The notes below the pieces were generated by a model. That model was not told where the DNA came from, did no database searches, and saw only the letters and a program-made list of their open reading frames with translations. Of a stretch of 64,000 nt of DNA, positions 2,271-14,576 are shown piece by piece. The DNA is from Caballeronia sordidicola (lineage in GTDB: Bacteria; Pseudomonadota; Gammaproteobacteria; Burkholderiales; Burkholderiaceae): the NCBI RefSeq assembly GCF_000729995.1, contig NZ_JNFG01000004.1, positions 1-64,000 on the forward strand. The letters are read 5' to 3'. The position numbers and the translations under genes are program-made. Position 1 is the first letter of the stretch; each line of letters opens with the position of its first letter.

Positions 2271-2404
2271 GTTTCACTCCCGGTTGCCGTTTACAGCATC
2301 CCAGGCCGGGGCATCGTGTCGATGCACTCGCTTGCGCTCATATCGCGATTATCTGGCCGTTTGAATCGTGGCCCCACACAGGGGTGCTCCGCTACCCAAA
2401 TGTG

Positions 2405-2415
2405 AAGTTTAACTT
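2405..2415. promoter_or_regulatory. Candidate MarR-family operator
   Basis: AAGTT-T-AACTT, a perfect palindrome about 35 bases before the ATG of the MarR gene. MarR regulators usually repress their own promoters by binding such palindromes, so autoregulation here is a reasonable inference, but the repeat is short. Confidence 0.3.
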
Positions 2416-2449
2416 GGTAGTTTGCCTTTGTATCTGCTAAGGTGCGGAC

Positions 2450-2914
2450 ATGAACACGAACGAGAAAACGCAACATACCGATCCCGAAGTCGCGCATGCG
2501 CACGCCGTCGCGGCGGAATTGCGCGTGGTGCTTGGCAAGCTGAAGCGGCGGTTGCGCGAAGAGGCGAATCTGGGAGAGTTCACTTTGTCCCAGATGTCAG
2601 CCCTTGGCCGTCTGGAGCGAGAGGGGCCCGCGACCGTCACCACGCTCGCGCGCGCCGAAGGTGTCCGCCCGCAATCCATGGGCGCCACCGTGTCCGTTCT
2701 CGAGGCGGCCGGGTTCGTCACAGGCGCACCGGATCCCGCCGATGGCCGTCAAACCATTTTGTCCCTCACCGACACTTGCCGCGAATGGATCAAGGCGACC
2801 CGTGCAGCTCGGGAAGACTGGTTGTTCCGTGCCATCCGAACCAGGCTCACGCCCGCGGAGCAGGAGGAATTTGCGACCACGGTGGCGCTGCTGAACCGGC
2901 TCGTCGATTCCTGA
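2450..2914 (+). CDS. MarR-family transcriptional regulator
   Basis: A 154-residue winged-helix protein. The N-terminal dimerisation helix is followed by a helix-turn-helix (about residues 45-85, with LSQMSALGRLEREGPATV and a recognition helix in VRPQSMGATVSVLEAAG) and the wing signature DPADGRQ (about 95-101), which is diagnostic for MarR. Such regulators sense small aromatic or oxidising compounds and repress an adjacent efflux or detoxification gene. It lies 106 bases before an isochorismatase-fold enzyme and an MFS exporter in the same direction, which are its likely targets. A short palindrome stands in front of it. Confidence 0.88.
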   Translation: MNTNEKTQHTDPEVAHAHAVAAELRVVLGKLKRRLREEANLGEFTLSQMSALGRLEREGPATVTTLARAEGVRPQSMGATVSVLEAAGFVTGAPDPADGRQTILSLTDTCREWIKATRAAREDWLFRAIRTRLTPAEQEEFATTVALLNRLVDS

Positions 2915-3020
2915 GTCACCCAAGCTCACTTGGCAGAAGCAGTGCCATCGGCTCATGTATTCCCTTTGCCGCGCCTGATTCAGGGCCCGTCGCAGTCCAA
3001 CTCGCAAGAAGGAAAACACC

Positions 3021-3584
3021 ATGACAATTACCACGCTCGACCCGAAGACGGCTCTTGTAATCATCGATTTGCAGAAGGGCATTGTTGCGCTTCCCACCGC
3101 GCACCCCGTCAATGAAGTCGTCAAACACGCCGTCGAGTTGCTTGACGCCTTCCGCAGCCACGGATTGCCCGTCGTGCTAGTCAACGTCGCCGGCGGCGCG
3201 CCGGGCCGGTCGGAGCAGGCTCGAAACCTTGCCGGGCTTCCCGCCGATTGGGCCGATCTTGTCTCTGAGTTGAAGCAGCAGCCGGAAGATCACATCGTCA
3301 CGAAGCGGACGTGGGGCGCGTTCACGAATACCGGTCTCGATGAACATCTGAAGAAGCTCGGTGTCACCCATGTCGTTATTGCCGGGGTGGCAACCAGCGT
3401 TGGTGTCGAGTCGACCGCACGTTATGCGCACGAGCTCGGGTTCAACGTGACATTGGCCACCGATGCCATGACCGACATGAATGCCGATGCCCACACCAAC
3501 AGCATCACGCGGATCTTCCCAAGGCTGGGCGAGACCGGCACGTGCCGGGAGATCATCGACCTCCTCGGGAGCACGCGCGCGTGA
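3021..3584 (+). CDS. Isochorismatase-family hydrolase, Gly at the usual Cys position
   Basis: A 187-residue Rossmann-like hydrolase. Asp16 (in ALVIIDLQKG) and Lys95 (in TKRTWG) match two members of the catalytic triad of the isochorismatase/cysteine-hydrolase superfamily. The third, normally a nucleophilic Cys in a motif like GVATNICVESTA, is Gly128 here (GVATSVGVESTA). True isochorismatases of the EntB/PhzD type, which cleave a vinyl ether, also have Gly there, whereas amidases need Cys. The substrate is unknown. The start has AAGGAAAA just upstream. It sits between a MarR regulator and an MFS exporter, which suggests a small detoxification unit. Confidence 0.85.
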   Translation: MTITTLDPKTALVIIDLQKGIVALPTAHPVNEVVKHAVELLDAFRSHGLPVVLVNVAGGAPGRSEQARNLAGLPADWADLVSELKQQPEDHIVTKRTWGAFTNTGLDEHLKKLGVTHVVIAGVATSVGVESTARYAHELGFNVTLATDAMTDMNADAHTNSITRIFPRLGETGTCREIIDLLGSTRA

Positions 3585-3624
3585 AGTATTTCAGCGCGGA
3601 GATAGCGGCCTCGGGAGCGGTTCG

Positions 3625-4890
3625 GTGAAGGGCACCTTCCGCTCGCTGAACAGCTTCAACTACCGGGTCTGGGCCGGTGGCGCGATCGTGTCCAATATTG
3701 GAACGTGGATGCAGCGCACGGCCCAGGATTGGCTCGTGCTTACGCAACTGACTCACCACAATGCGACCGCGGTCGGCGTGGTCATGGCGCTCCAGTTTGG
3801 CCCGCATCTTCTCTTGCTGCCCTTCACCGGTTTTGCGGCCGATCATCTCGATCGCCGCAAGCTCCTGATCGGCACCCAGGCGGCTTTGGGAACGCTCGCG
3901 CTTGGGCTGGGGATACTCACGGTCGCCGGATGGGTCCAGTTGTGGCACGTGTACGCGTTCGCGTTTTTGCTCGGCAGCGTCAGTGCGTTCGATGCCCCCG
4001 CGCGTCAAACGTTCGTCGCCGATCTGGTCGGTGAAACCGACCTGTCCAATGCCGTGGCGCTGAACTCCACATCGTTCAATGCTGCGCGAATGATTGGTCC
4101 CGCCATTGCCGGTGTGCTGATTGCATCGGTGGGAACAGGGTGGGTGTTCCTGATCAACTCGGCATCGTTTGTCGCGGTGCTCTGCTCGTTGGGGTTTCTT
4201 CGTGTTGGCGAATTTCATCCGAGCAAGCGGGCCGTCCGCGCGCGGGGGAGCCTGGCCGAAGGGTTCCGATATGTCTGGAAGCGGCCCGATCTGAAAGCGG
4301 TGCTGCTCATGCTGTTTCTGATCGGCACGTTCGGGCTGAACTTCCCGATCTTCATCTCCACGATGTCCGTCACCGTCTTTCATGCCGGAGCAAGTCAATA
4401 CGGACTCCTGACATCGATTATGGCCATCGGGACGATCGCGGGTGCGCTGCTTGCCGCAAGGCGAGCGAAGCCGCGGATTGGTGTGCTGTTCGCTAGTACC
4501 GCGGTCTTCGGGGGCGGTTGTGCGCTGGCGGCGATCGCGCCGAGCTATGGGTTCTTTGGTCTTGCGCTCGTGGTTATCGGCGTGTCCGCGCAGACCATCA
4601 CCACGACGACAAACAGCACGATGCAGCTGTCCACCGAGCCCGCCATGCGCGGACGCGTGATGGCGATCTTTCTGGCGATTGCGTTGGGTGGCACGCCTTT
4701 GGGTGCGCCGGTTGTAGGTTGGGTCGCCGATACCTTCGGCCCGCGTTGGGCACTTGGTGTTGCCGCGGCGGCGGGGTTTGCTGCGGCGATCGTCGGGATT
4801 CGATATTTGGCGAAGTACCGGCAGTTGCGAGTGTTTATCGATGCAGGGAGGGTGCGGTTTAGTATCGATGAGGGGGATGCGGTGGTTTGA
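3625..4890 (+). CDS. MFS transporter, EntS-like (MFS_3) exporter
   Basis: A 421-residue major facilitator with about 12 hydrophobic spans. Recognisable are NIGTWMQRTAQDWLV in the first span, the loop motif FAADHLDRRKLL (the MFS D-R-R signature between spans 2 and 3), and an AMRGRVMAIF segment in the second half, all typical of the EntS/MFS_3 group of drug or siderophore exporters. GTG at 3625 is chosen because GGGAGCGG lies four bases upstream and the conserved protein begins right after it; the frame extends upstream into the previous gene without homology. It is probably co-transcribed with the hydrolase and controlled by the MarR protein. Confidence 0.87.
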   Translation: MKGTFRSLNSFNYRVWAGGAIVSNIGTWMQRTAQDWLVLTQLTHHNATAVGVVMALQFGPHLLLLPFTGFAADHLDRRKLLIGTQAALGTLALGLGILTVAGWVQLWHVYAFAFLLGSVSAFDAPARQTFVADLVGETDLSNAVALNSTSFNAARMIGPAIAGVLIASVGTGWVFLINSASFVAVLCSLGFLRVGEFHPSKRAVRARGSLAEGFRYVWKRPDLKAVLLMLFLIGTFGLNFPIFISTMSVTVFHAGASQYGLLTSIMAIGTIAGALLAARRAKPRIGVLFASTAVFGGGCALAAIAPSYGFFGLALVVIGVSAQTITTTTNSTMQLSTEPAMRGRVMAIFLAIALGGTPLGAPVVGWVADTFGPRWALGVAAAAGFAAAIVGIRYLAKYRQLRVFIDAGRVRFSIDEGDAVV

Positions 4891-4937
4891 CGAGGGGTGT
4901 TTTTGAACTTCTCAGGCGATAAACGAAAGCCAAAATG

Positions 4938-4973
4938 AAAAAGGGTTTGCAAGCTAAAAAAGCTTGCAAACCC
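4938..4973 (-). terminator. Strong leftward terminator at the island edge
   Basis: Perfect 13-base arms (GGGTTTGCAAGCT / AGCTTGCAAACCC) around five A residues. On the minus strand the stem is followed by five T. It would stop leftward transcription coming from the SPFH operon or from the former tRNA whose fragment lies at 4992-5015; in the rightward direction there is no T-run. Confidence 0.75.
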
Positions 4974-4991
4974 GCTTAAATGCATAGTGCA

Positions 4992-5015
4992 GCGCGACAG
5001 ATTCGAACTGTCGAC
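4992..5015 (-). repeat. Partial tRNA-Lys T-arm copy (candidate att remnant)
   Basis: These 24 bases match 12961-12984, the T-arm and part of the acceptor strand of tRNA-Lys, at 23 of 24 positions and in the same orientation. The rest of a tRNA is absent on either side, and the acceptor end is diverged (no encoded CCA). A direct repeat of a tRNA 3' part far from the intact gene is the usual scar of site-specific integration. An IS256-type remnant begins right beside it. Confidence 0.6.
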
Positions 5016-5264
5016 ACCGGAGAACCAACGCGATCGAATCGATCAACATGAGTCTGCGCAGAGTCATCAAAACGCGCAGTTCGTTTCCGACTGACGACGC
5101 CGCAATGAAGCTGTTTTACCTGGCGCTGAACAACATCAGCAAGAAATGACCGATGCCGATCAGAGACTGGAAGGCGGCGCCAGACCGCGTCGCCATCCGG
5201 TTCGAAGACCGGATATCGCAGGGTTAAACAAAAACCCGATCACACAAAATGCGGGACACCCTCC
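5016..5264 (+). mobile_element. IS256-family element remnant (right end)
   Basis: The C-terminal coding end of an IS256/Mutator-type transposase followed by a downstream stretch ending near GGGACACCCTCC at about 5253-5264, which resembles the terminal repeat of Burkholderia IS256-type elements. The left two-thirds of the element is missing; the break coincides with the tRNA fragment. Confidence 0.6.
5021..5227 (+). pseudogene. IS256-family transposase, C-terminal fragment with nonsense codon
   Basis: Reading from 5021 gives [15 protein letters not shown], then [15 protein letters not shown] and LALNNISKK, the highly conserved C-terminal region of IS256 (Mutator) transposases. TGA at 5147-5149 stands where family members have Trp (KKWTMPI), after which the frame continues with PIRDWKAAPDR and ends at TAA 5225-5227. 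About 68 codons remain of a protein normally near 400, and there is no N-terminal or catalytic DDE part. It is non-functional. Confidence 0.85.
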
Positions 5265-5341
5265 ATGCCTTCTATCGCGCTAGCCGCCGACGGCATCTAC
5301 AGGTCTCAAACGATTGCCTCGCGTCACGTCAGAACCCGCAG

Positions 5342-6025
5342 CTACGCCGCAGCGCCGTTCGCAAACTGCTGCTGGTCGACCGGTTCAACGCGCAGGAACG
5401 GGATACTGCCAGGCTTTGCGGGGACCATCGACACGATCGGCGTCTGTTTTGCCAAGGTTCCCGGCGCGTGCATGCCATCGTTGAGCCAGGCCATGACCGT
5501 CGCCCGATCTGAGTTTGGTACCGAAACCAGCACGCGACACGGCTCTGCTCGCGACGCCGCCAATTGACCGCTCAGTTCGACACTCTTGCGCAAGTCAGGA
5601 CTTCGGCTCGCCAGCATGGTCTTCGGCAATCCGACTGTCGTGCCCTTCCAGGCGGTCACGGTCTGGCTAGCGCCGCCGTCGTCCTGACGGCTGAGCGGAG
5701 CGGTATCGGTCACAACAGGAACACCCGATGTGTGCAACGACTGCTCCAACACCCGTGCTTGCGCGAGATCCTGTTCCTTTCCGTGGCGCCAGCCGACGAA
5801 TGCGCCGGCCGCACCAACTAGCACGGCGGCATTTCGACACGTGACGTCGGAACCGTGGGCCGCCTTGCACAACACGAAACCAGCCAGAGCGCCCACCCCC
5901 GCGCCTACTGCGCCCTGCGTCGCGGCGTTGGACGGGCCACTGCCGTCCGGATTGGCGCACCCGGCGAGCGACACCGCCAAGGCGAGAGTCCAGGTCGATT
6001 TACGATTCAGGAAGATGGTGCTCAT
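5342..6025 (-). CDS. Glycine-zipper lipoprotein, last gene of the SPFH operon
   Basis: A 227-residue lipoprotein: signal peptide and lipobox SLAGC with Cys23, then a Gly/Ala-rich zipper (about residues 37-75, with QGAVGAGVGALAG and VGAAGAFVGW) of the kind that inserts in membranes, and a C-terminal soluble domain without a family I recognise. The ATG at 6025 overlaps the stop of the zinc-ribbon gene by four bases (ATGA), so the two are translationally coupled. The role is probably envelope-linked and tied to the SPFH protein; that is inference from the operon. It ends 77 bases before the IS256 remnant. Confidence 0.78.
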   Translation of the reverse strand: MSTIFLNRKSTWTLALAVSLAGCANPDGSGPSNAATQGAVGAGVGALAGFVLCKAAHGSDVTCRNAAVLVGAAGAFVGWRHGKEQDLAQARVLEQSLHTSGVPVVTDTAPLSRQDDGGASQTVTAWKGTTVGLPKTMLASRSPDLRKSVELSGQLAASRAEPCRVLVSVPNSDRATVMAWLNDGMHAPGTLAKQTPIVSMVPAKPGSIPFLRVEPVDQQQFANGAAA

Positions 6026-8274
6026 TTGGAGGTGCCCAAGTCCTTCAACTGCTGTTCGAGTTGTTGATTGATGCTGCGGACGTACGCTTGGTCGCCCTTC
6101 GACGGGGCTTCGCGAGATGCCAATGCAGGCGTGGGCGGCGGTACGAGCGTCGCGGTGCTGATCTTGGCGGTGTTGGCCATAGCGATCGGAATGTCCAGCG
6201 CGCGTTGCGACACCTGCATGCTGACTTGCTTGATGGCGTCGGAACGGCCACCCGCAGCCTGCTCCTGCAGAAATGCGAGGCTCCGGTCCCGATTCGAGGT
6301 GTAGTGGACTGCGATGCTTAACGCCGCCTCCGCCTCGGGCAGGTGGCCGCTCTCGGCCAGACTGCTCGCAAGATTGGCCCATGCCGATGAGCGCCTCGGA
6401 CTGCGGGTCAAAACGTCCGTCACGACATCGATCGCTTCCTGCTGGCGTCCCGCTTCCTCATAGGCAAAGCCCAGATTGTTTTGAATCTCGATGTCCGCTG
6501 GGTCGGCAGCTACACCGCGACGGAATGCATCGACTGCACCGAAGTAATTGGAGACCCCCAAAGCCGCCTTGCCCTCGATATTGGCCGCCCGCGCGGTCGC
6601 CCGGTCGCGTGGCGCCGCACTCGCTAAATCGGTGCGGCGGAGACGGTCCGCGGCGATATCGACGGATGACCAGTCGTTCTGCGCGGCAGCGCTGAGGACA
6701 TCGACAACCGGCACTGGGACGGAAACCTGGGCGTGCGCTATCGGCGATACCTGGGCCGGCGTCGCGGTGTTTGCCAAGGTATCGGCGATCTGAGCGGGCA
6801 CTTGCACAGGGGGCGCCGGCGGCGGCGCAACACTGGCTTCGACGGCTGCGACGGCTGCGACGGCTTGTTGTGGTTCCGGCGATGCTGTCGTGACAGGTTG
6901 CGTCGCCGGGGCCTGAGCGAGCGTTTCCGGCGGAGCAGGGTTATCGGCGACCGGCACCGGTGTTTCCACGGCTGGCGCCAACGTCGCCGTCGCTTCCAAC
7001 TGCTGCGCGTGCATCCGTACCTGCTCGTGCAGTCGCGGCGTCAGTACGAACGCGAGCGCTGCGACCGATGCGAGCGGCAGGATCACGGAGTCCTTCATCG
7101 TTCCCGCCAGCCACGGGCGGTCCGGCCGCTTGCAGGATTCCATCAGGCGACCGCGCTCGGCTTCATCAACGTTCGCGGTGTTCGTTGCCGCCATTTTGCG
7201 TTGCGCGAGGATGGCGTGCCGGAGCTTCAGAGAGTAGGAAAGGATCGAGTGCCGGCGCAGCACGCCATAAGCGATTGAACCGATCAGCCCGGCCCACATG
7301 AGCGGCACTTCGGGCAAGGCGCTGAGCTGTCCGTTCGTGGTCGCGGCCACGCCGGCGAACGCCGCCATTCCGGCCAGCGCAGGAATGAAGCCATAACGCA
7401 CGGCGCGCCTGCGGCCATGGTCTTCAGGTCCCGCATCGGCGACCAGGTTTGCCGTCGATGTACCGTCTGTCCAAACGTTGTAAGCTTTGCCCTGATATTC
7501 GTACACGATGTGACAGACAGGAATGAGGACACGCGAAGCGTTTTTTTTCGTCGATGCTGTCCAGTGCCAGTCTTTTTGCGAATCGCCCTGGGCGTGCTGT
7601 TTGACGCCTTGATCGATGATCGCGTTTACGAGTGCTTCCCCGCGATTTCCATAGGCCTCGTTAGGACGCTGGCTGTAGGCTTCTACCTCAAAACCGCTGG
7701 TGAACGATGCGCTGTAGTCGGCAAGGTCACCCTTCATCTGGCAACGTTCGACAAGGCGGGTTGTCAGGTCGAGCGAGGCATCCAGAAAACGGCTGCCGCC
7801 ATACGTGAGCACGCTGAATCCGCCGCTGTCCGAGCCGTTCACCGGACGCCAGTCGGTCACAGTTCGCGTGCGGCTGACTGCCTGGCTGTTGCCGCGGCTG
7901 TCCTTGACGAAGTCCGTGTAGTGCTCAGTGCGGTTATAGCCGAAGCTCGCCGTCCAATTTGCTTCGTATTTACCGGTGAACGCATAAGCCGGCACGAAGA
8001 ACTGTTCGACTTTCGTGAACGTTGCGTGCTCGAGCAAGTTGTCCGGCGTATATTTTCCTTCGGCCAGGTGTTGGAATACTGCGTCCTCCAACTGGTTGCG
8101 CGTTACCACTAGCGTGACAATGTGATCGGGTGTCGCGTCGATCTCATCCTCACTCGCTCTCGGGATCTCAGTCACGGCAGCGCAGTAGACGCACTTTAGC
8201 GCCCTTGCGCCGGCCGAGTATTCAAGACTCGCGCCACACCCGCTGCATAGCAGCTTCAACTCTCCGCTTTCCAT
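6022..8274 (-). CDS. Zinc-ribbon (TFIIB-like) membrane protein with TPR domain, YdjG-like
   Basis: A 750-residue protein. Residues 10-31 form a zinc ribbon with two knuckles, C10xxC13 and C28xxC31. A beta-rich region follows (about 50-290), then hydrophobic spans near 300-320, 330-345 and 400-418, a long Pro/Ala/Val-rich linker (about 425-540) and TPR-like helices (about 565-665). The N-terminal ribbon plus membrane spans next to an SPFH gene recalls Bacillus YdjG, a membrane partner of PspA and YdjI; the long linker and TPR part are extra. The start is supported by GGGAG six bases upstream. The homology to YdjG is by architecture and neighbourhood, not alignment. Confidence 0.75.
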   Translation of the reverse strand: MESGELKLLCSGCGASLEYSAGARALKCVYCAAVTEIPRASEDEIDATPDHIVTLVVTRNQLEDAVFQHLAEGKYTPDNLLEHATFTKVEQFFVPAYAFTGKYEANWTASFGYNRTEHYTDFVKDSRGNSQAVSRTRTVTDWRPVNGSDSGGFSVLTYGGSRFLDASLDLTTRLVERCQMKGDLADYSASFTSGFEVEAYSQRPNEAYGNRGEALVNAIIDQGVKQHAQGDSQKDWHWTASTKKNASRVLIPVCHIVYEYQGKAYNVWTDGTSTANLVADAGPEDHGRRRAVRYGFIPALAGMAAFAGVAATTNGQLSALPEVPLMWAGLIGSIAYGVLRRHSILSYSLKLRHAILAQRKMAATNTANVDEAERGRLMESCKRPDRPWLAGTMKDSVILPLASVAALAFVLTPRLHEQVRMHAQQLEATATLAPAVETPVPVADNPAPPETLAQAPATQPVTTASPEPQQAVAAVAAVEASVAPPPAPPVQVPAQIADTLANTATPAQVSPIAHAQVSVPVPVVDVLSAAAQNDWSSVDIAADRLRRTDLASAAPRDRATARAANIEGKAALGVSNYFGAVDAFRRGVAADPADIEIQNNLGFAYEEAGRQQEAIDVVTDVLTRSPRRSSAWANLASSLAESGHLPEAEAALSIAVHYTSNRDRSLAFLQEQAAGGRSDAIKQVSMQVSQRALDIPIAMANTAKISTATLVPPPTPALASREAPSKGDQAYVRSINQQLEQQLKDLGTSK

Positions 8275-8347
8275 CGTTGCTCCCGACTCGTGCTTTGTTT
8301 GTTCGAATTATTTGCTGTCCGGCGTTTCACGGACCAGCCGACCCGAC

Positions 8348-9037
8348 CTATGCATGCGAGCGCAGCGCGGCCAAAGCCGACGCATGCAACGCGATCATTC
8401 GGCGAAGATGATTGAGCTCCCTGGCAATCTCGTCGTTGCTGCCGGCCGAAGCCTTTTGCTGCAGGATCGTCAGTGCCGATGCGACCTGACTTGCCTCGAC
8501 CACGGCATCGGACGCGCGAGCCGAAGGTGCGTAGCGCAACTCTTCCGCCATTTGCGTGCAATGGGTCTTGAGAGTCGTATCGGTCATAGAGTGGGAAACG
8601 CTGACCAACGAGGCGGCCCACGCTGTGTAGCGGCCATCCTTTTGCTCCGTGGCCTGGATTCGGTCTACGACATTCCCGGTGACGTTCGCGAGCAACGTTC
8701 CCACGATGAAGACCGCGGCGCATGCGATCAGCAACGCCCACGAGAGCCCCGTATGACGCAGAACGCTGGCTGACAACGCAGCGGTGGCCAGAAGCACGGT
8801 CAACAGAAGCGTGGCGCCCATCGGCCCGACGATGGCGAGCCGCCCTGACTGCGTCTTGCCCGATGCGATTGGCGCGTAGGGAAGGTGCACCATCGCGCCC
8901 AGCGCCAACGCGACGGCCACGGCGCAGAGCCATGTGTCGACCGTCCACGTATCGACGGGGAGAACGAAATAGAGAACGCCAAGCGCTGCCAGCACGACGA
9001 CGACTGCCGCCATCGCGAGATGAGTTCGGATATTCAT
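8348..9037 (-). CDS. Four-span membrane protein with helical cytoplasmic tail
   Basis: A 229-residue protein with four hydrophobic spans in the first 120 residues (near 8-27, 36-52, 67-90 and 98-118) and a helical, soluble C-terminal part (about 125-229) rich in Ala, Thr and charged residues, ending in a predicted amphipathic helix. I do not recognise a family. It lies between the SPFH gene (12-base gap) and the zinc-ribbon gene (73-base gap), all leftward, so it is probably a membrane partner in the same complex. No clear ribosome site precedes the ATG, so coupling to the upstream gene is likely. Confidence 0.7.
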   Translation of the reverse strand: MNIRTHLAMAAVVVVLAALGVLYFVLPVDTWTVDTWLCAVAVALALGAMVHLPYAPIASGKTQSGRLAIVGPMGATLLLTVLLATAALSASVLRHTGLSWALLIACAAVFIVGTLLANVTGNVVDRIQATEQKDGRYTAWAASLVSVSHSMTDTTLKTHCTQMAEELRYAPSARASDAVVEASQVASALTILQQKASAGSNDEIARELNHLRRMIALHASALAALRSHA

Positions 9038-9049
9038 GGTGTCGGTCGC

Positions 9050-10108
9050 TCAGGAGGCCAGGATTTTTTGTTTTTCGGTGTTGATTTCGTCATCAGTGAG
9101 AATGCCGGCCGCTTTGAGTTCAGCGAGCTCCTTGAGCAGGCGGATTCGCTCGGCCGAACCCAGGCGCGGAGCGGCGACGCTCGTAGTTGTCGCCGCGGAC
9201 GCGGACGGCGGAGGCGGAGGGGGCGCCGAGGGCTGTACCTGTTGCGACATCTGCGCGAAGCCTTGCCCGATCGCAGGGCCAATTCCAAGTCCCGCTCCCA
9301 CTCCGATCCCCGCACCCATCAAGGTACCCGCCGAGCCCTCGTTGCCAGCGGCCGTTTCCATCACGTCGAAGCTGCGTTCTTGCTGATAGGTAAAACCGAT
9401 GATTCCCATTTCCGCGCGCTTGGCCAGCGCGGCCTTGAGCGTCTTCACCGCCGGATCGTCCTCCGGCACGTTGATCGAATGGATGTTGAACTGAGCCAGG
9501 CCGACGCCGTACTCGGCCATCTCAACCGACAACGACAGCTTGAGCGCGTCTGACAGCGCCTCGAGTTGCGTATTTATCTCCAGCACGGACACGCCGGCAC
9601 GCGAGATCGCATTTGCGATCTCGGTTTTAATCCGCGTGATGAAGACACCGCGAAAGTATTCGGCCAGCGTCGTCGAGTCGAAGCCCGACAGCGTGCCTAC
9701 GAGCTTGAGGAGGAACTTCTTTGGATCGACAATGCGCACACCGTACTGGCCGAATGCGCGCACGGGGACCATGACGCCATATTTGGGATCTTGCAGCTGG
9801 ATCGAGTCGGGCGTGCCCCACCGGACATCCAGGTTGGTAACCCGGTTGACGTACCAGACCTCGGCGGTGAACGGCGACTTGCCGCCGAACGGGATGCCGA
9901 TCAGCGTGCGCAGCAGCGGCAAGTTTTCCGTACTGAGTGTGTGCCGGCCTGCGCCGAACGGACCTTCGTACACACCACCGCGCACGAGATAAGCTTCCTG
10001 CGACTCATTGACGACGAGTTGCGTCCACGTCGACAGTTCTTCAGAAGGATATTTCCACGCAAGTAGATTGGGACTGCCGCTCCACTTCACTAAATCAATG
10101 ATCGCCAT
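9050..10108 (-). CDS. SPFH/Band-7 domain protein with C-terminal SHOCT, YdjI-like
   Basis: A 352-residue protein of the COG4260 'virion core'/YdjI group: an N-terminal SPFH (Band-7) domain over about residues 30-240, a Gly-rich stretch (about 260-285), a proline run near 300 and a C-terminal SHOCT motif (LLKELAELKAAGILTDDEI). There is no transmembrane span; SPFH proteins form membrane-attached scaffolds. In Bacillus YdjI recruits PspA to damaged membrane. The ATG at 10108 is chosen because the conserved MAIIDLVKW start lies there; the frame continues 17 codons upstream without a ribosome site. It is the first gene of the four-gene leftward operon. Confidence 0.87.
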   Translation of the reverse strand: MAIIDLVKWSGSPNLLAWKYPSEELSTWTQLVVNESQEAYLVRGGVYEGPFGAGRHTLSTENLPLLRTLIGIPFGGKSPFTAEVWYVNRVTNLDVRWGTPDSIQLQDPKYGVMVPVRAFGQYGVRIVDPKKFLLKLVGTLSGFDSTTLAEYFRGVFITRIKTEIANAISRAGVSVLEINTQLEALSDALKLSLSVEMAEYGVGLAQFNIHSINVPEDDPAVKTLKAALAKRAEMGIIGFTYQQERSFDVMETAAGNEGSAGTLMGAGIGVGAGLGIGPAIGQGFAQMSQQVQPSAPPPPPPSASAATTTSVAAPRLGSAERIRLLKELAELKAAGILTDDEINTEKQKILAS

Positions 10109-10178
10109 TTTTTGCTTTTCTCTTTCGGGCAGATGCCGAGCGACTGAAACGCCTCTCAACGCGATTACGCCTTGTTCG

Positions 10179-10193
10179 AGGTCCAGTGGACCT
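10179..10193. promoter_or_regulatory. Perfect palindrome upstream of the SPFH operon
   Basis: AGGTCCA-G-TGGACCT, a perfect 15-base palindrome about 70 bases before the SPFH start. It is well placed to be an operator for the four-gene operon. No regulator is encoded nearby in the island. Confidence 0.4.
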
Positions 10194-10909
10194 GTTGTTT
10201 TAGCCGCTGCTGATTATCTGTCTTGTGCAAAGCGGACGGCAGCCGAGCGGCGCGAATCAAGGAACTACTGCTTCGATAACGGCATAATTCCTATCAACTT
10301 GAGAGGTAATTTTGAGGATCGTGCCGTGGTCACTTTGTTGTCATGCGCGGCCAGGCGGTTAGCCGCGCACCTCGAAACGAGAAACGTCGTCTTTCGCCAG
10401 CGCAAGATGAGTCTCCAAGCCATCGCCCTCTGCTCGGCAGCAATGCGCACAAGTCATCACCAGCAACTCGAGGCCGACGCGCCGGCACGTGCAGATGAAG
10501 ATTGGCGAAGGATTCGTAGCATTTCTTGAAAGGAGCGCACTCCGGTGGTTTTCGCTTGCGTAGATCCACCATCTATTCTGCAGTCGTGTTGAAGGGGAAA
10601 CGAAACGTGGGCATTTAGGCCGTCTGCGGATGACATCAATCAGCGAGGCGTAGTCCCAACGGGTCGCATCACTGCCCAAGCGGAACTGCTAACGCCGGTG
10701 TCGTCCATCGACTGACGTGCGGGCCGAGCAGGCAGCCGCCGGCCTGAGCAAAAGGGGCACGGCGGGCGTGCTTCGTTCAACATGGTTTACTCCGCCATGC
10801 GCCCGTAGGTGTGTGGAACAAGCGACAAAATGTCAGGGTCAACGTCACAAACTGCCCGGCACATATTTGCAAGTAAGCATTGGCTATCGACATCGGGCCA
10901 AGTCATGCG
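10194..10909. other. Gene-poor stretch within the island
   Basis: About 700 bases upstream of the SPFH operon. Frames of up to about 110 codons occur on both strands, but none has a ribosome site or a recognisable product, and the text reads like decayed coding DNA. The operon promoter should lie at its left end. Confidence 0.4.
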
Positions 10910-11329
10910 CTAGGGCATGGAGCGCAATCGCTCGACCGTCGCGATTGCATCCGCGCGATGTTCGCCGAGAAACATTCCGGCAAAGCTATACGCGTCCTTC
11001 CAATTGGGAAACGCCATTGCAAACTTCACTAATTTTTCTTCGAGTTTGTGCAGTACCTCGTCGGTGGGTGTCGCCTCGCCGACAATGCCATCAATAACCA
11101 TCGCCTGAACAGTCGATTTGAGCGAAGCCAGGAACCGCGAGTACGATTCGACGCCTTTGTCTCTTCCAAAAAACGTTTTTTTGTTCGCATTCTTTACGGT
11201 CTCCGCCATCGTCGTGACGAGTCTCTGAAGAGCATTGAATGTGTGCGGAGTCGCGATCTGCAACTGCTCTGCGAACATGCGGATGGGAGTTGTAACTTGC
11301 AAATCAACAAAAGTGCGGATGCTGCTCAC
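10910..11329 (-). CDS. Hypothetical helical protein (139 aa)
   Basis: A 139-residue soluble, mostly helical protein starting at GTG, with a very good ribosome site (AAGGAGG five to ten bases upstream). It has no signal peptide, Cys or transmembrane span; charged and hydrophobic residues alternate as in helical bundles (for example LHKLEEKLVKFAMAF). I do not recognise a family. It is on the same strand as the SPFH operon but 800 bases upstream of it, so it is probably transcribed separately. Confidence 0.6.
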   Translation of the reverse strand: MSSIRTFVDLQVTTPIRMFAEQLQIATPHTFNALQRLVTTMAETVKNANKKTFFGRDKGVESYSRFLASLKSTVQAMVIDGIVGEATPTDEVLHKLEEKLVKFAMAFPNWKDAYSFAGMFLGEHRADAIATVERLRSMP

Positions 11330-11987
11330 GCTTCCTCCTTGAGATTGTCTTATTCCCTAGGCTTCGTCATTACTATCCGGCTCTACCGATGAATGACCAA
11401 ACAGTCGGGTCAGGCTCGGATCTCGACTTTGCCGCAAGCATCGGCAATGCCGATTCGCAATGCAAATTGGCTCGATAGACATGTTCTGCCCTCTGTGGCG
11501 CTTATTTACCGTTAAACGGCACAAGGCGCCTTGCGGTGTAACGTTCGGCGGCAACTTGACCTCGACCGTTACGACGAACGTAGGTTGCCACGAGCCTGGA
11601 GGCATCGTACGTGCGACCTCGCGCATACCGGCGACGCAATCGCCTTTCTTTGGTGTGCGCGAGATACGAGCAGGACTGCGATCCATCGCAGAGCGTTTAG
11701 TGTTTCGGGTAGCCGGCACATATGCGTCGTCCCATGGTGCGTGCCATTGGCAGGTGCTTCGCTCACTCCTCTGCCGTGTCGACTTGGACCTCACGCGCCT
11801 GATCGTCTGACGGGTCGCGTTGTTGCTTATACGGTCTTTTTCTCTCTTTACGGCTCGGCTCGACTTTGGAGGACCAGTTTCCGCTCCGCATAGCATTTAC
11901 TTGATGAACAGGATCCTAACGTTGAAATCGCCGTTACTAAGCTATCGCATGGCACTTTGTTGGTGTCCCCGCCTTCGAGCGCAGTAA
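11330..11987. other. Gene-poor stretch within the island
   Basis: About 650 bases. Open frames at 11357-11896 (minus) and 11460-11810 (plus) overlap each other, have no ribosome sites and give no recognisable protein. I see no supported gene. Confidence 0.4.
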
Positions 11988-12012
11988 TGAAAAAGCCCCG
12001 AATTGCGGGGCT
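11988..12012 (-). terminator. Rho-independent terminator
   Basis: On the minus strand AGCCCCG, five bases, CGGGGCT, then a T-rich run. It lies 24 bases past the stop of the leftward gene at 12036-12692. Confidence 0.75.
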
Positions 12013-12035
12013 CCGTTTGTTTCTGGCAGAATTAT

Positions 12036-12692
12036 TCAATAATCGTGTCCGAGGTAGACCGTTACAACCTTGTCTTTCACCGGGTCATAATCACAACGGT
12101 ACACGGCACCTAAGTAACCACCATACTGCTGCAACAATTCTATGTTCCGACCGAAATACGAAATTGTCTTATGTGTTTCGTCCGTCCAATCGAAGCGCGA
12201 AAACATCGGGGATGAATCATTAGTCGTCCACTGTGCGCCATATCTCGCCGCTCGCTCTAGCAACGGTGCGCAAGCAATGTTCGCTTGCGATTGATGTCGC
12301 TTGCCCCAGCAGTGCCCATCCTTACGGCAGCCAGCTTCTAACGAGGCTTCTAGTTCTGCTGAAGCCTTCAATTGCGCAGCAGTTAGCGGGGTTTCTCCAA
12401 CAACGGACGCCGCCGCTTGTTCAGCAACAGACGCCGCCGCTACTACACTAGCGCGTGAAACTGCATTGTTATATGCGGGTTCTGCTTCAGATGTTTGTAT
12501 CGTGGGAGTGTGTGGCGGATCGTCGGTACTGCGGGTTGCTATCCCCATCACAGTAGCCGCGACCACCGCTGCGCCAATGACGCCAATAACCCAATCCGAC
12601 GCTCGATTAAACTTACTTTTACCGCCCTTCAATTCCACCACTTCGACCCCTGTTGGTTTCGCGTTCTGAGCGCGAAACGTTCGCGCTCGCAT
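12036..12692 (-). CDS. Hypothetical single-span membrane protein
   Basis: A protein of up to 218 residues. It has a basic N-terminus, one hydrophobic span (about 34-51, WVIGVIGAAVVAATVMGI), an Ala/Ser-rich middle and a C-terminal domain (about 138-218) with conserved-looking Cys, Trp and aromatic residues. I recall a C-terminal domain of this look in hypothetical proteins of Pseudomonas and Burkholderia; no function is known. The ATG at 12692 has no ribosome site; a GTG about 17 codons further in, preceded by AGGGG, is an alternative start. It is the island gene nearest to tRNA-Lys, where an integrase would be expected, but it is not one. Confidence 0.6.
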   Translation of the reverse strand: MRARTFRAQNAKPTGVEVVELKGGKSKFNRASDWVIGVIGAAVVAATVMGIATRSTDDPPHTPTIQTSEAEPAYNNAVSRASVVAAASVAEQAAASVVGETPLTAAQLKASAELEASLEAGCRKDGHCWGKRHQSQANIACAPLLERAARYGAQWTTNDSSPMFSRFDWTDETHKTISYFGRNIELLQQYGGYLGAVYRCDYDPVKDKVVTVYLGHDY

Positions 12693-12914
12693 GAGGGTCG
12701 AAAGTTAATACGAAGCAGATATCTCATAAATCAGCAGATGCCTATTCGCCCAAAAGGCCAAGTCACGCGTCAACGTTCGCAGATAGCTCGCATCGATCAC
12801 GGTGCCGATGCAAGGTCGGAACCGCATCGTTGGCCAGTGTTTGCGGAAATTGACGGAGTAATTTTGAGCAAGATATTTTTCGTGAATGTAACCCCGGCGT
12901 TACCCCGACCAAAA

Positions 12915-12943
12915 CGAAAAAGGCTCCCGATCCTCTGGGAGCC
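12915..12943 (-). terminator. Terminator behind tRNA-Lys
   Basis: On the minus strand GGCTCCC, eight bases, GGGAGCC and five T. It starts 11 bases after the tRNA 3' end. Confidence 0.8.
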
Positions 12944-12953
12944 TTACGTGTCT

Positions 12954-13029
12954 TGGTGGGGCGTGACAGATTCGAACTGTCGACCTACGGATTAAGAGTC
13001 CGCTGCTCTACCAGCTGAGCTAACGCCCC
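12954..13029 (-). tRNA. tRNA-Lys (anticodon CUU)
   Basis: A 76-base tRNA with encoded CCA. The acceptor GGGGCGT pairs with ACGCCCC; the D-arm is GCTC/GAGC, the anticodon loop CTCTTAA gives CUU, and the T-arm is GACAG-TTCGAAT-CTGTC. It is on the minus strand with its own terminator. Its T-arm region is repeated at 4992-5015. Confidence 0.97.
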
Positions 13030-13288
13030 GAAAAACTGAATCCGAATTATAGCGACGTTTTCGCCGATTGCGCAACTGTCCGCAACGCAAAACCTGAAAA
13101 AACCGTCTCGCAGACGCCTGAAAGCCTTGCCGCACCTCGTACGGGCGCGCATCGATCATCCCAAAATAGCCTCGCTTCGGGCAATTGTCACGAGCCGTTA
13201 TCATGACGGACGCATGAAACACGCACTCGTTGCGGCCCCGGCAAACGCACGAAAGTAGCCACGAGACCAACGTCACCAAACCAAATCC

Positions 13289-13693
13289 ATGGACGAATCC
13301 GCTATCCGCGCTTTGCTCGACACCACCTTCGCGCCGTGGATCCGCGACCTGGGCCTGAAGCCGGAAAGCTCCTCCGATACCAGCGTTACCCTGCGCCTGC
13401 CAAACGCGGACAAACTCCGCCACGTGGGCGGCGTGATCTGCGGCCAGGTTTTCATGGCCGCCGCTGACACCGCCATGATCGTCGCGATCGCACACGTGCT
13501 AGGCGGTTTCCAGCCGATGACCACCGTCTCGTTAACAACAAGCTTCCTGCGCCCGGTAAAAGCCGGTGATGTCCTGGTCACGGCCAATATCCTGCGCCGC
13601 GGCCGCAACCTGATCTTCGGCGAAATCGAAGTCCACGACGAAACCGGCGCACTCGCTGCTCACGCGACCACCACGGTCATGCTTCTCACATAA
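13289..13693 (+). CDS. PaaI-like hotdog-fold thioesterase
   Basis: A 134-residue protein of the PaaI/YbgC hotdog superfamily, which hydrolyses acyl-CoA thioesters. The central helix segment is HVGGVICGQVFMAAADTAM; the Asp of the AADTAM turn matches the catalytic acid region of PaaI-type enzymes, and the C-terminal strands (DVLVTANILRRGRNLIF, then FGEIEV) complete the fold. The substrate cannot be read from the sequence. It is followed after seven bases by a patatin-like lipase gene and then an OsmC gene, in one likely transcript. Confidence 0.85.
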   Translation: MDESAIRALLDTTFAPWIRDLGLKPESSSDTSVTLRLPNADKLRHVGGVICGQVFMAAADTAMIVAIAHVLGGFQPMTTVSLTTSFLRPVKAGDVLVTANILRRGRNLIFGEIEVHDETGALAAHATTTVMLLT

Positions 13694-13700
13694 AAAACCT

Positions 13701-14576
13701 ATGTTCGATCAAGTCGTATTCGCCGGCGGCGGCAACCGCTGCTGGTGGCAAGCCGGTTTCTGGGACGTCGTCCAGCCGGAACTCAAGCTGCGCCCGCGCG
13801 TGATTACCAGCATCTCGGCCGGCGCGGCCACGGCCTGCATGCTGTACATGAACCGCTCCGAGTGGGTAATGGACTACTACGCGCACGTGCTGCGCGACAA
13901 CCCGAAGAACGCGTATTGGGGCAATTTGTTGCGCAGCGAATCGGTGTTTCCTCACTATCGGATCTACCGGCAGGCACTACTCGATATCTACGGCGCCGAG
14001 TTTGCATCGCTGCAAGACGCGCCGGAGATTCGTATCGGCGTATCGCATTTACCGCGTTGGCTAGGCGCACGAAGCGCCGTGGCTGCAGGGTTGATCGCCT
14101 ATAACATCGAAAAGTACGTGCGCAAGAAGCTGCATCCCACGCTCGGTCAGTCCCTCGGCTTCCATCCCGAATTCGTGAAGGCGCAAGAGTGCGCGAGCGT
14201 CGATGATCTCGCCGACCTGATCCTGCAATCGTCGTGTACGCCGCCATTCACGCCGGTGATGCACCGGCACGGCCGCCCGGTGCTCGATGGCGGCATGGTC
14301 GACAATGTGCCGGTCGGCGCGCTGGATGCATCGCCGGGACTGGTTCTCGTGATGGTGACGCGCGTGTATCCGCGGCCGCAGATGTTTGTCGTGGAGCACG
14401 GCGCGAACCGCGACCAGCGTCGCGTTTATGTGCAGCCATCCCGCAAGGTGCCCATTTCGGCATGGGATTACACGAGTCCGTCGCTGATGCGGCCCGCGTA
14501 CGACCTGGGCCGTGCCGACGGCGAGCAATTCCTGACCCGTTTGCCCGACCTGCTCGGCGCAGCGGCGCATCTCTAA
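13701..14576 (+). CDS. Patatin-like phospholipase family protein
   Basis: A 291-residue protein. It has the oxyanion-hole motif GGGNRCWW (about residues 9-16), a nucleophile elbow SISAGA (Ser near 40 in the GxSxG-like turn) and the catalytic-dyad motif LDGG (about 196-199, Asp), the three signatures of bacterial patatin lipases, in the right order and spacing. Such enzymes release fatty acids from phospholipids or acylglycerols. There is no signal peptide, so it is probably cytoplasmic or peripheral. Neighbours are a thioesterase and an OsmC protein; a joint lipid-turnover role is only suggested. Confidence 0.85.
   Translation: MFDQVVFAGGGNRCWWQAGFWDVVQPELKLRPRVITSISAGAATACMLYMNRSEWVMDYYAHVLRDNPKNAYWGNLLRSESVFPHYRIYRQALLDIYGAEFASLQDAPEIRIGVSHLPRWLGARSAVAAGLIAYNIEKYVRKKLHPTLGQSLGFHPEFVKAQECASVDDLADLILQSSCTPPFTPVMHRHGRPVLDGGMVDNVPVGALDASPGLVLVMVTRVYPRPQMFVVEHGANRDQRRVYVQPSRKVPISAWDYTSPSLMRPAYDLGRADGEQFLTRLPDLLGAAAHL

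Follow-up and report, generated by a model that had tools for sequence, protein, structure and literature searches.

What does a compact membrane operon do beside a tRNA-Lys gene of Caballeronia sordidicola, and did it originate there? We analyzed a stretch of 64,000 nucleotides (hereafter the window) at the start of contig C4 (NZ_JNFG01000004.1; assembly GCF_000729995.1), from a genome of 10.26 Mb that is 100% complete with 5.85% contamination. The contig belongs to the genus, because the flanking major facilitator superfamily (MFS) gene is about 86-92% like that of its congeners in the best rows. An earlier sequence-only reading had pointed here to an island with an operon that might act in membrane stress or phage defense. 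We find that the conserved unit of this operon is a trio of genes encoding an SPFH protein, a four-span membrane protein (4TM) and a zinc-ribbon protein. With a probability of roughly 60%, this mobile cassette would encode an SPFH-scaffolded inner-membrane complex for envelope surveillance, one that is independent of PspA and has exchangeable periplasmic tails. The surveillance function is suggested by the architecture of the proteins and by analogy with YdjGHI of Bacillus subtilis. The operon comprises:

9050-10108, minus strand: SPFH protein (PF13421 Band_7_1, by Pfam), 352 amino acids (aa), with a SHOCT-like C-terminus
8348-9037, minus strand: 4TM protein, 229 aa, with a predicted C-terminal four-helix part (by hydropathy and structure model)
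6022-8274, minus strand: zinc-ribbon protein, 750 aa, with an LSD1 ribbon, a long-strand beta domain, three likely transmembrane helices, a Pro/Ala linker and TPR
5342-6025, minus strand: glycine-zipper lipoprotein, 227 aa (by family scans and an LAGC motif)

All four genes of the leftward operon that had been described are present, at corrected coordinates (stop codons included). They run in the order SPFH, 4TM, zinc ribbon and lipoprotein, with gaps of 12 nt and 73 nt and then an ATGA, in which the lipoprotein start overlaps the zinc-ribbon stop. The SPFH protein matches PF13421 (Band_7_1) at 155.4 bits (cut-off 24; E = 2e-45), has no strong hydrophobic segment and gave no match in a PDB sequence search. 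SHOCT is most often joined to the PF13421 band 7 family, according to the available part of PMC3581485; the window protein is of this same SPFH type, here inside a three- to four-gene operon. The 4TM protein has four hydrophobic segments, and its structure model (predicted local distance difference test, pLDDT, 89) consists of four long helices and then another four. It matches no Pfam family above cut-off and hence gives no sign of a TPM domain, a remote relation below detection being possible. We take the LAGC of the lipoprotein to be a lipobox.

The zinc-ribbon protein exceeds the NCBIfam cut-off for an LSD1 zinc ribbon (22.7 versus 15.5) and has one CxxC...CxxC pair (C10, C13, C28 and C31). 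In an AlphaFold model of residues 1-430 (pLDDT 89), the small, less confident ribbon comes first, followed by very long strands (85-124, 130-158 and 232-260) and by helices (286-312, 323-363 and 395-429). Hydropathy places spans at 295-313, 317-335 and 397-415, the linker at 413-540 is 39% Pro plus Ala, and Pfam finds clear TPR matches at about 567-655. At the threshold used, the three-span pattern appears in 29 of 45 aligned homologues, of which 25 are strictly N-in/C-out by counts of lysine and arginine. The tails past the last span are swapped between homologues: with the window row cut to residues 1-430, we found TPR_19 in 23 of the 45, LprI in two, DUF4189 in one and Adhesin_E in one, and seven rows stop no more than 10 residues past the last span. 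Such swaps are seen in P0009, P0045, P0046, P0049 and P0050; the C-terminus of P0009 presumably resembles an SH3-type domain. When the zinc-ribbon profile was searched against PDB sequences, the best 60 of 189 rows matched best in the TPR region, and this search was set aside.

We found this arrangement far beyond Caballeronia. A pattern-based scan with the zinc-ribbon alignment, across a collection of 84,980 species, recovered 48 loci, which is a lower bound: 22 that are Betaproteobacteria by title, 20 from metagenome-assembled genomes (MAGs) titled Deltaproteobacteria and six others (Sulfurospirillum, Chlorobi, Granulicella, Opitutae and two 'uncultured proteobacterium'). SPFH, a 4TM-type open reading frame (ORF) and zinc ribbon follow in order within 4 kb at 30 of the 48, and two more with a larger gap make 32. 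Note that the 4TM criterion is loose (an ORF of 170-330 aa with at least three hydrophobic segments) and that direct sequence matches to the window 4TM are fewer. Contig ends cut six of the 48 loci. Half of the complete trios (16 of 32) are in MAGs titled Deltaproteobacteria, the four of these used in our trees being placed in Myxococcota; Betaproteobacteria, Sulfurospirillum and a Chlorobi MAG have the trio as well. Its occurrence in several phyla is shown, and it is scattered and patchy. In the family, a near-full-length zinc-ribbon protein was found in 5 of 398 genomes (three candidate stretches scored per genome), the remainder of the tally (380) being, among the rows listed, partial TPR-type matches. 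DNA similarity between the window and three other Burkholderiaceae loci (L003, L004 and L005) is confined to the cassette genes, and the flanks of the trio are unrelated in the four loci compared. The sequence-only reading had asked whether all four genes travel together through variable loci. This holds for the trio; the lipoprotein turned up in Burkholderiaceae copies alone (the window, L003, L005 and G120), and not in L004.

In the window, the cassette lies on an island with these boundaries:

12954-13029, minus strand: tRNA-Lys (ctt), the integration target (by ARAGORN)
12956-12984, plus strand: right att-like repeat copy, within the 3' half of the tRNA (by repeat search)
4987-5015, plus strand: left att-like repeat copy, at which collinearity with an empty-site relative ends (by repeat search and locus comparison)
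3481-4890: MFS gene, left neighbor of the island
5024-~5265, no strand assigned: remnant of an insertion sequence (IS)-like element, multi-copy in some congeners (by DNA search; label inferred from copy number)

The two exact copies of the 20-bp sequence GACAGATTCGAACTGTCGAC (4996-5015 and 12965-12984) are its only occurrences in the 64 kb, even when up to three mismatches are allowed; the chance expectation for such a repeat is 0 (100 shuffles). In register, the repeat extends to 29 nt at 90% identity (4987-5015 versus 12956-12984), with a spacing of 7,969. A piece of the tRNA-Lys T-arm had been reported to recur 8 kb away with 23 of 24 bases identical; the repeat is real and in the same orientation. 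Empty sites were found in two relatives. In the congener G033 (L053), window positions 2390-5015 join 12952-14460, with a shared overlap of 33 bp that contains the repeat, and the tRNA-Lys is intact. In G009 (L065), pieces of the MFS gene are followed directly by 12953-13915 (the tRNA scan was made in G033). The repeat and the empty sites bear out the claim of a site-specific island at tRNA-Lys, and the block between the repeats is shown to be inserted; we take its cassette to be horizontally acquired. Nor is it part of the genus core, which would have spoken against an island: the SPFH protein is present in 1 of 58 genus genomes, the window's own. When the 58 genomes, including the window's own (G000), were searched with five candidate stretches scored per genome, the other 57 contained no match to the island DNA beyond the IS-like remnant in four (G001, G029, G046 and G055) and matches of 33-39 bp in eight.

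The locus therefore has two marks of a tRNA island, the flanking repeat of the tRNA 3' end and the empty site in relatives, and lacks a third, an integrase within the island. A PF00589 search of the genome found none there and one on contig C4 at 66269-66814, outside both island and window. Within the genus, the tRNA-Lys site probably serves as a hotspot for integration, because in G029, G032, G042 and G050 (L056, L052, L054 and L058) it ends in a 46-51-bp piece of the tRNA-Lys 3' end, with no complete tRNA in the stretch fetched at the site, and because about 1.4 kb separates the MFS gene from the tRNA in G035. Only a few bases separate the IS-like remnant from the left att copy, which it possibly truncated. 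Near the cassettes of L004, L006, L021 and L009, no tRNA repeat of at least 13 bp was found, except for a 14-bp match beside a tRNA in L006.

The one studied SPFH/zinc-ribbon operon that we found acts through PspA, whereas the core of our cassette mostly occurs without it in the carriers tested. In B. subtilis, YdjG together with YdjH tethers YdjI and PspA to the membrane; YdjI depends on these membrane partners and PspA on YdjI (PMC8581546, available part). YdjG has two zinc ribbons, a YpeB-related domain and a transmembrane segment, YdjH has a TPM domain, and YdjI is reported with a C-terminal ribbon (PMC11237479, available part). The SPFH and zinc-ribbon proteins of the window are of the YdjI/YdjG type, as had been recognized, the latter being likened to YdjG by its description. 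Like pspA-ydjGHI, the cassette combines an SPFH protein, a zinc-ribbon membrane protein and a second membrane protein in one operon. Unlike pspA-ydjGHI, it has its SPFH gene first rather than last, a SHOCT-like tail, a periplasmic tail and a lipoprotein, and it is mobile. Two features of the Psp system are also missing: a PspA in the operon, whose absence next to the genes had already been noted, and a TPM-domain YdjH, no TPM domain being detectable on the 4TM. The Band-7/PspA-linked operons of Ravi et al. 2024 (PMC11237479) likewise bring Band-7, SHOCT and zinc-ribbon parts together at the inner membrane; the available parts of that paper do not describe a PspA-free SPFH-4TM-zinc ribbon trio. 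We found no description of the trio in the open-licence full-text literature, and a subscription paper may exist. The island carries a member of what seems to be a previously undescribed form of the SPFH/zinc-ribbon membrane module, one that is mobile and mostly free of PspA.

The zinc-ribbon core also has relatives of another kind. On the Comamonas odontotermitis plasmid NZ_CP083452.1, an SPFH gene is immediately followed by one for a 362-aa 'TFIIB-type zinc ribbon' protein. Profile alignment (hhalign 99.5%, E = 2.7e-22, 259 columns) shows the cassette core to be homologous to the family of this protein, which is very large (7,043 of 8,000 scored candidates match) and of which this one member adjoins an SPFH gene; linkage to SPFH was checked in the Comamonas record alone. 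The two proteins share the ribbon and the beta domain. The Comamonas protein differs in being short and without a tail, in having no annotated 4TM gene between it and the SPFH gene, and in its two N-terminal CxxC-pair ribbons, against one in the window protein. In this last respect it resembles YdjG as described in the available part of PMC11237479.

Is PspA a partner of the cassette from elsewhere in the genome? This check had been called for in the sequence-only reading. The window genome has a single PspA, on contig C202. Among 12 other carrier genomes tested, two (both Paraburkholderia) have PspA/IM30 and 10 gave no match. Several of the 12 are MAGs, in which absence means less. Completeness is given for four (99-100%), two of which have no PspA, and Sulfurospirillum diekertiae (L007), titled a complete genome, likewise gave no match. 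Because PspA is missing from 10 of the 12, the cassette is not simply a Psp accessory, and PspA is not its partner in general. Of the earlier tie to the PspA membrane-stress system, the YdjI/YdjG-type parts remain; with these absences, the tie itself is weak.

We propose the following mechanism. The SPFH protein would oligomerize on the inner leaflet of the inner membrane, held there by the zinc-ribbon protein, which would cross the membrane three times with its N-terminus and beta domain on the cytoplasmic side and its C-terminus in the periplasm, and also by the 4TM protein, whose helical part would face the cytoplasm. The tail past the third span (TPR in the window; LprI, DUF4189 or Adhesin_E in relatives; near-absent in others) may read the periplasm or dock a partner in the outer membrane or peptidoglycan, and in the window cassette the glycine-zipper lipoprotein is a possible tail partner. 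The spans would relay a signal to the zinc-ribbon/beta domain in the cytoplasm and so alter assembly of the SPFH scaffold, which could then stabilize the membrane or organize membrane proteins around damage. The cassette would thus work like YdjGHI, with PspA not needed. More tentatively, it may belong to a widespread, horizontally moving trans-envelope surveillance system that is distinct from Psp and acts without PspA, possibly against membrane damage inflicted by phages or competitors. A compact mobile cassette whose tested carriers mostly lack PspA offers a clean setting in which to ask what an SPFH scaffold does alone and how a periplasmic signal reaches it.

Several observations weigh against this reading. 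The window zinc-ribbon protein has a weak fourth hydrophobic stretch at 512-530, the threshold used leaves 16 of the 45 homologues without the three-span pattern, and four of the 29 that have it break the charge rule. The trio is not obligatory: SPFH and zinc ribbon occur without a detected 4TM at 3 of the 48 loci, and at seven loci (L009, L012, L020, L022, L023, L028 and L050; four are from Massilia) no SPFH gene precedes the zinc-ribbon gene, although 5 kb or more of upstream sequence was available. The SHOCT match on the SPFH tail is below threshold (16.5 bits versus a Pfam cut-off of 27), the glycine-zipper matches on the lipoprotein are weak and below the Pfam cut-off, and no shared promoter pattern was seen upstream of SPFH. 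Sigma-54/sigma-70 patterns there were discarded, with matches at 4 of 9 loci, at differing places, and none in the window.

Trees of the SPFH and zinc-ribbon proteins, built from 18 rows chosen from the loci, are similar in outline. Both group the four Burkholderiaceae rows (100/99 and 100/100). Sulfurospirillum stands beside Gallionella in the SPFH tree (97/92), and in the zinc-ribbon tree the two fall within the same five-row set (99/99). The window zinc ribbon pairs with Pandoraea, not Paraburkholderia (96/91). End branches have a median of 0.9 for the zinc ribbon versus 0.15 for SPFH; the placement of several long zinc-ribbon rows is unsure, and support is lacking for many inner branches. 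Viral contigs and phage records yielded no confirmed relative, and plasmids only distant ones (5 records, <25% identity).

These long zinc-ribbon core branches, together with the island location, patchy occurrence and unrelated flanks, would also suit an anti-phage or anti-plasmid module, in which the tail or ribbon senses infection-induced envelope damage and the 4TM/beta parts permeabilize or seal the membrane. We regard this as unlikely, though slightly more probable than the other alternatives. In S. diekertiae (L007, 1-15732), the trio directly follows HsdM, SIR2, HerA and HsdR and has a phage integrase about 3 kb further downstream, and the L003 cassette is followed after about 2.2 kb by a C5 methyltransferase. 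However, the four operon proteins matched no PADLOC model at E 0.001 (best, TPR at 0.037), viral contigs and phage records hold no confirmed relative, and the Oxalobacter trio precedes genes whose sequences read like 2-oxoglutarate dehydrogenase. Our neighborhood scan covered 10 loci and took 101 of the 125 listed ORFs (at least 170 aa), leaving out L026 wholly and some others; its first pass listed 25 of 137 families among the matches, and 69 ORFs outside L003, L004 and L007 were rescanned. Strong defense matches (1e-10) came from those three neighborhoods. The Zorya III beside L004 was rejected as evidence because it belongs to the core of its genus, where 31 of 32 genomes have a strong ZorB3 match. 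The other seven loci gave five families only in their 69 ORFs (PDC-M37B twice, mad3, DolB and C3a194), a yield similar to that of 12 control windows drawn from G120, G277 and G000 (96 of the 108 listed ORFs taken), which gave 11 families in 96 ORFs (mad3, RtcR types, PDC-S34, mad8, pVip, AriA) and none named restriction, SIR2 or HerA. There is thus one striking defense locus, and enrichment beside defense genes is not proven. The phage-defense idea of the sequence-only reading keeps this locus (one of the 10 neighborhoods) and little else.

Slightly less probable is a scaffold for membrane-protein quality control or assembly, flotillin- or HflKC-like and without stress sensing, for which the TPR tail would be a chaperone platform. 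The TPR tails of many homologues fit it, and SPFH scaffolds are reported to stabilize unfolded proteins or regulate respiration (PMC11222466 and PMC12005517, available parts). However, the tail gives way to LprI, DUF4189 or Adhesin_E in some homologues and is nearly missing in 7 of 45 rows, which suits a variable sensor more than an unvarying chaperone. The least likely alternative, PspA-recruiting membrane repair as in B. subtilis with PspA encoded elsewhere, draws on the PspA on C202 and in the two Paraburkholderia carriers and on the dependence of PspA on YdjI and of YdjI on its membrane partners (PMC8581546, available part), but is opposed by the 10 of 12 other carriers without PspA, including two 99%-complete genomes and S. 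diekertiae, the 4TM without TPM, and the SHOCT-like tail that replaces the C-terminal ribbon reported for YdjI.

Two further ORFs lie on the island, neither with a family above cut-off:

10910-11329, minus strand: ORF of 139 aa
12036-12692, minus strand: ORF of 218 aa with one strong hydrophobic segment (35-53)

In an Oxalobacter MAG (L021), a tRNA-Val (7812-7887) lies between the SPFH and 4TM genes. The SPFH gene is two ORFs in Dakarella massiliensis (L016, 8260-9312) and one in Mesosutterella (L026). Two Gallionella loci (L008, 513-896; L010, 7052-7420) have a small ORF before the cassette, on the opposite strand, that looks helix-turn-helix-like by eye.

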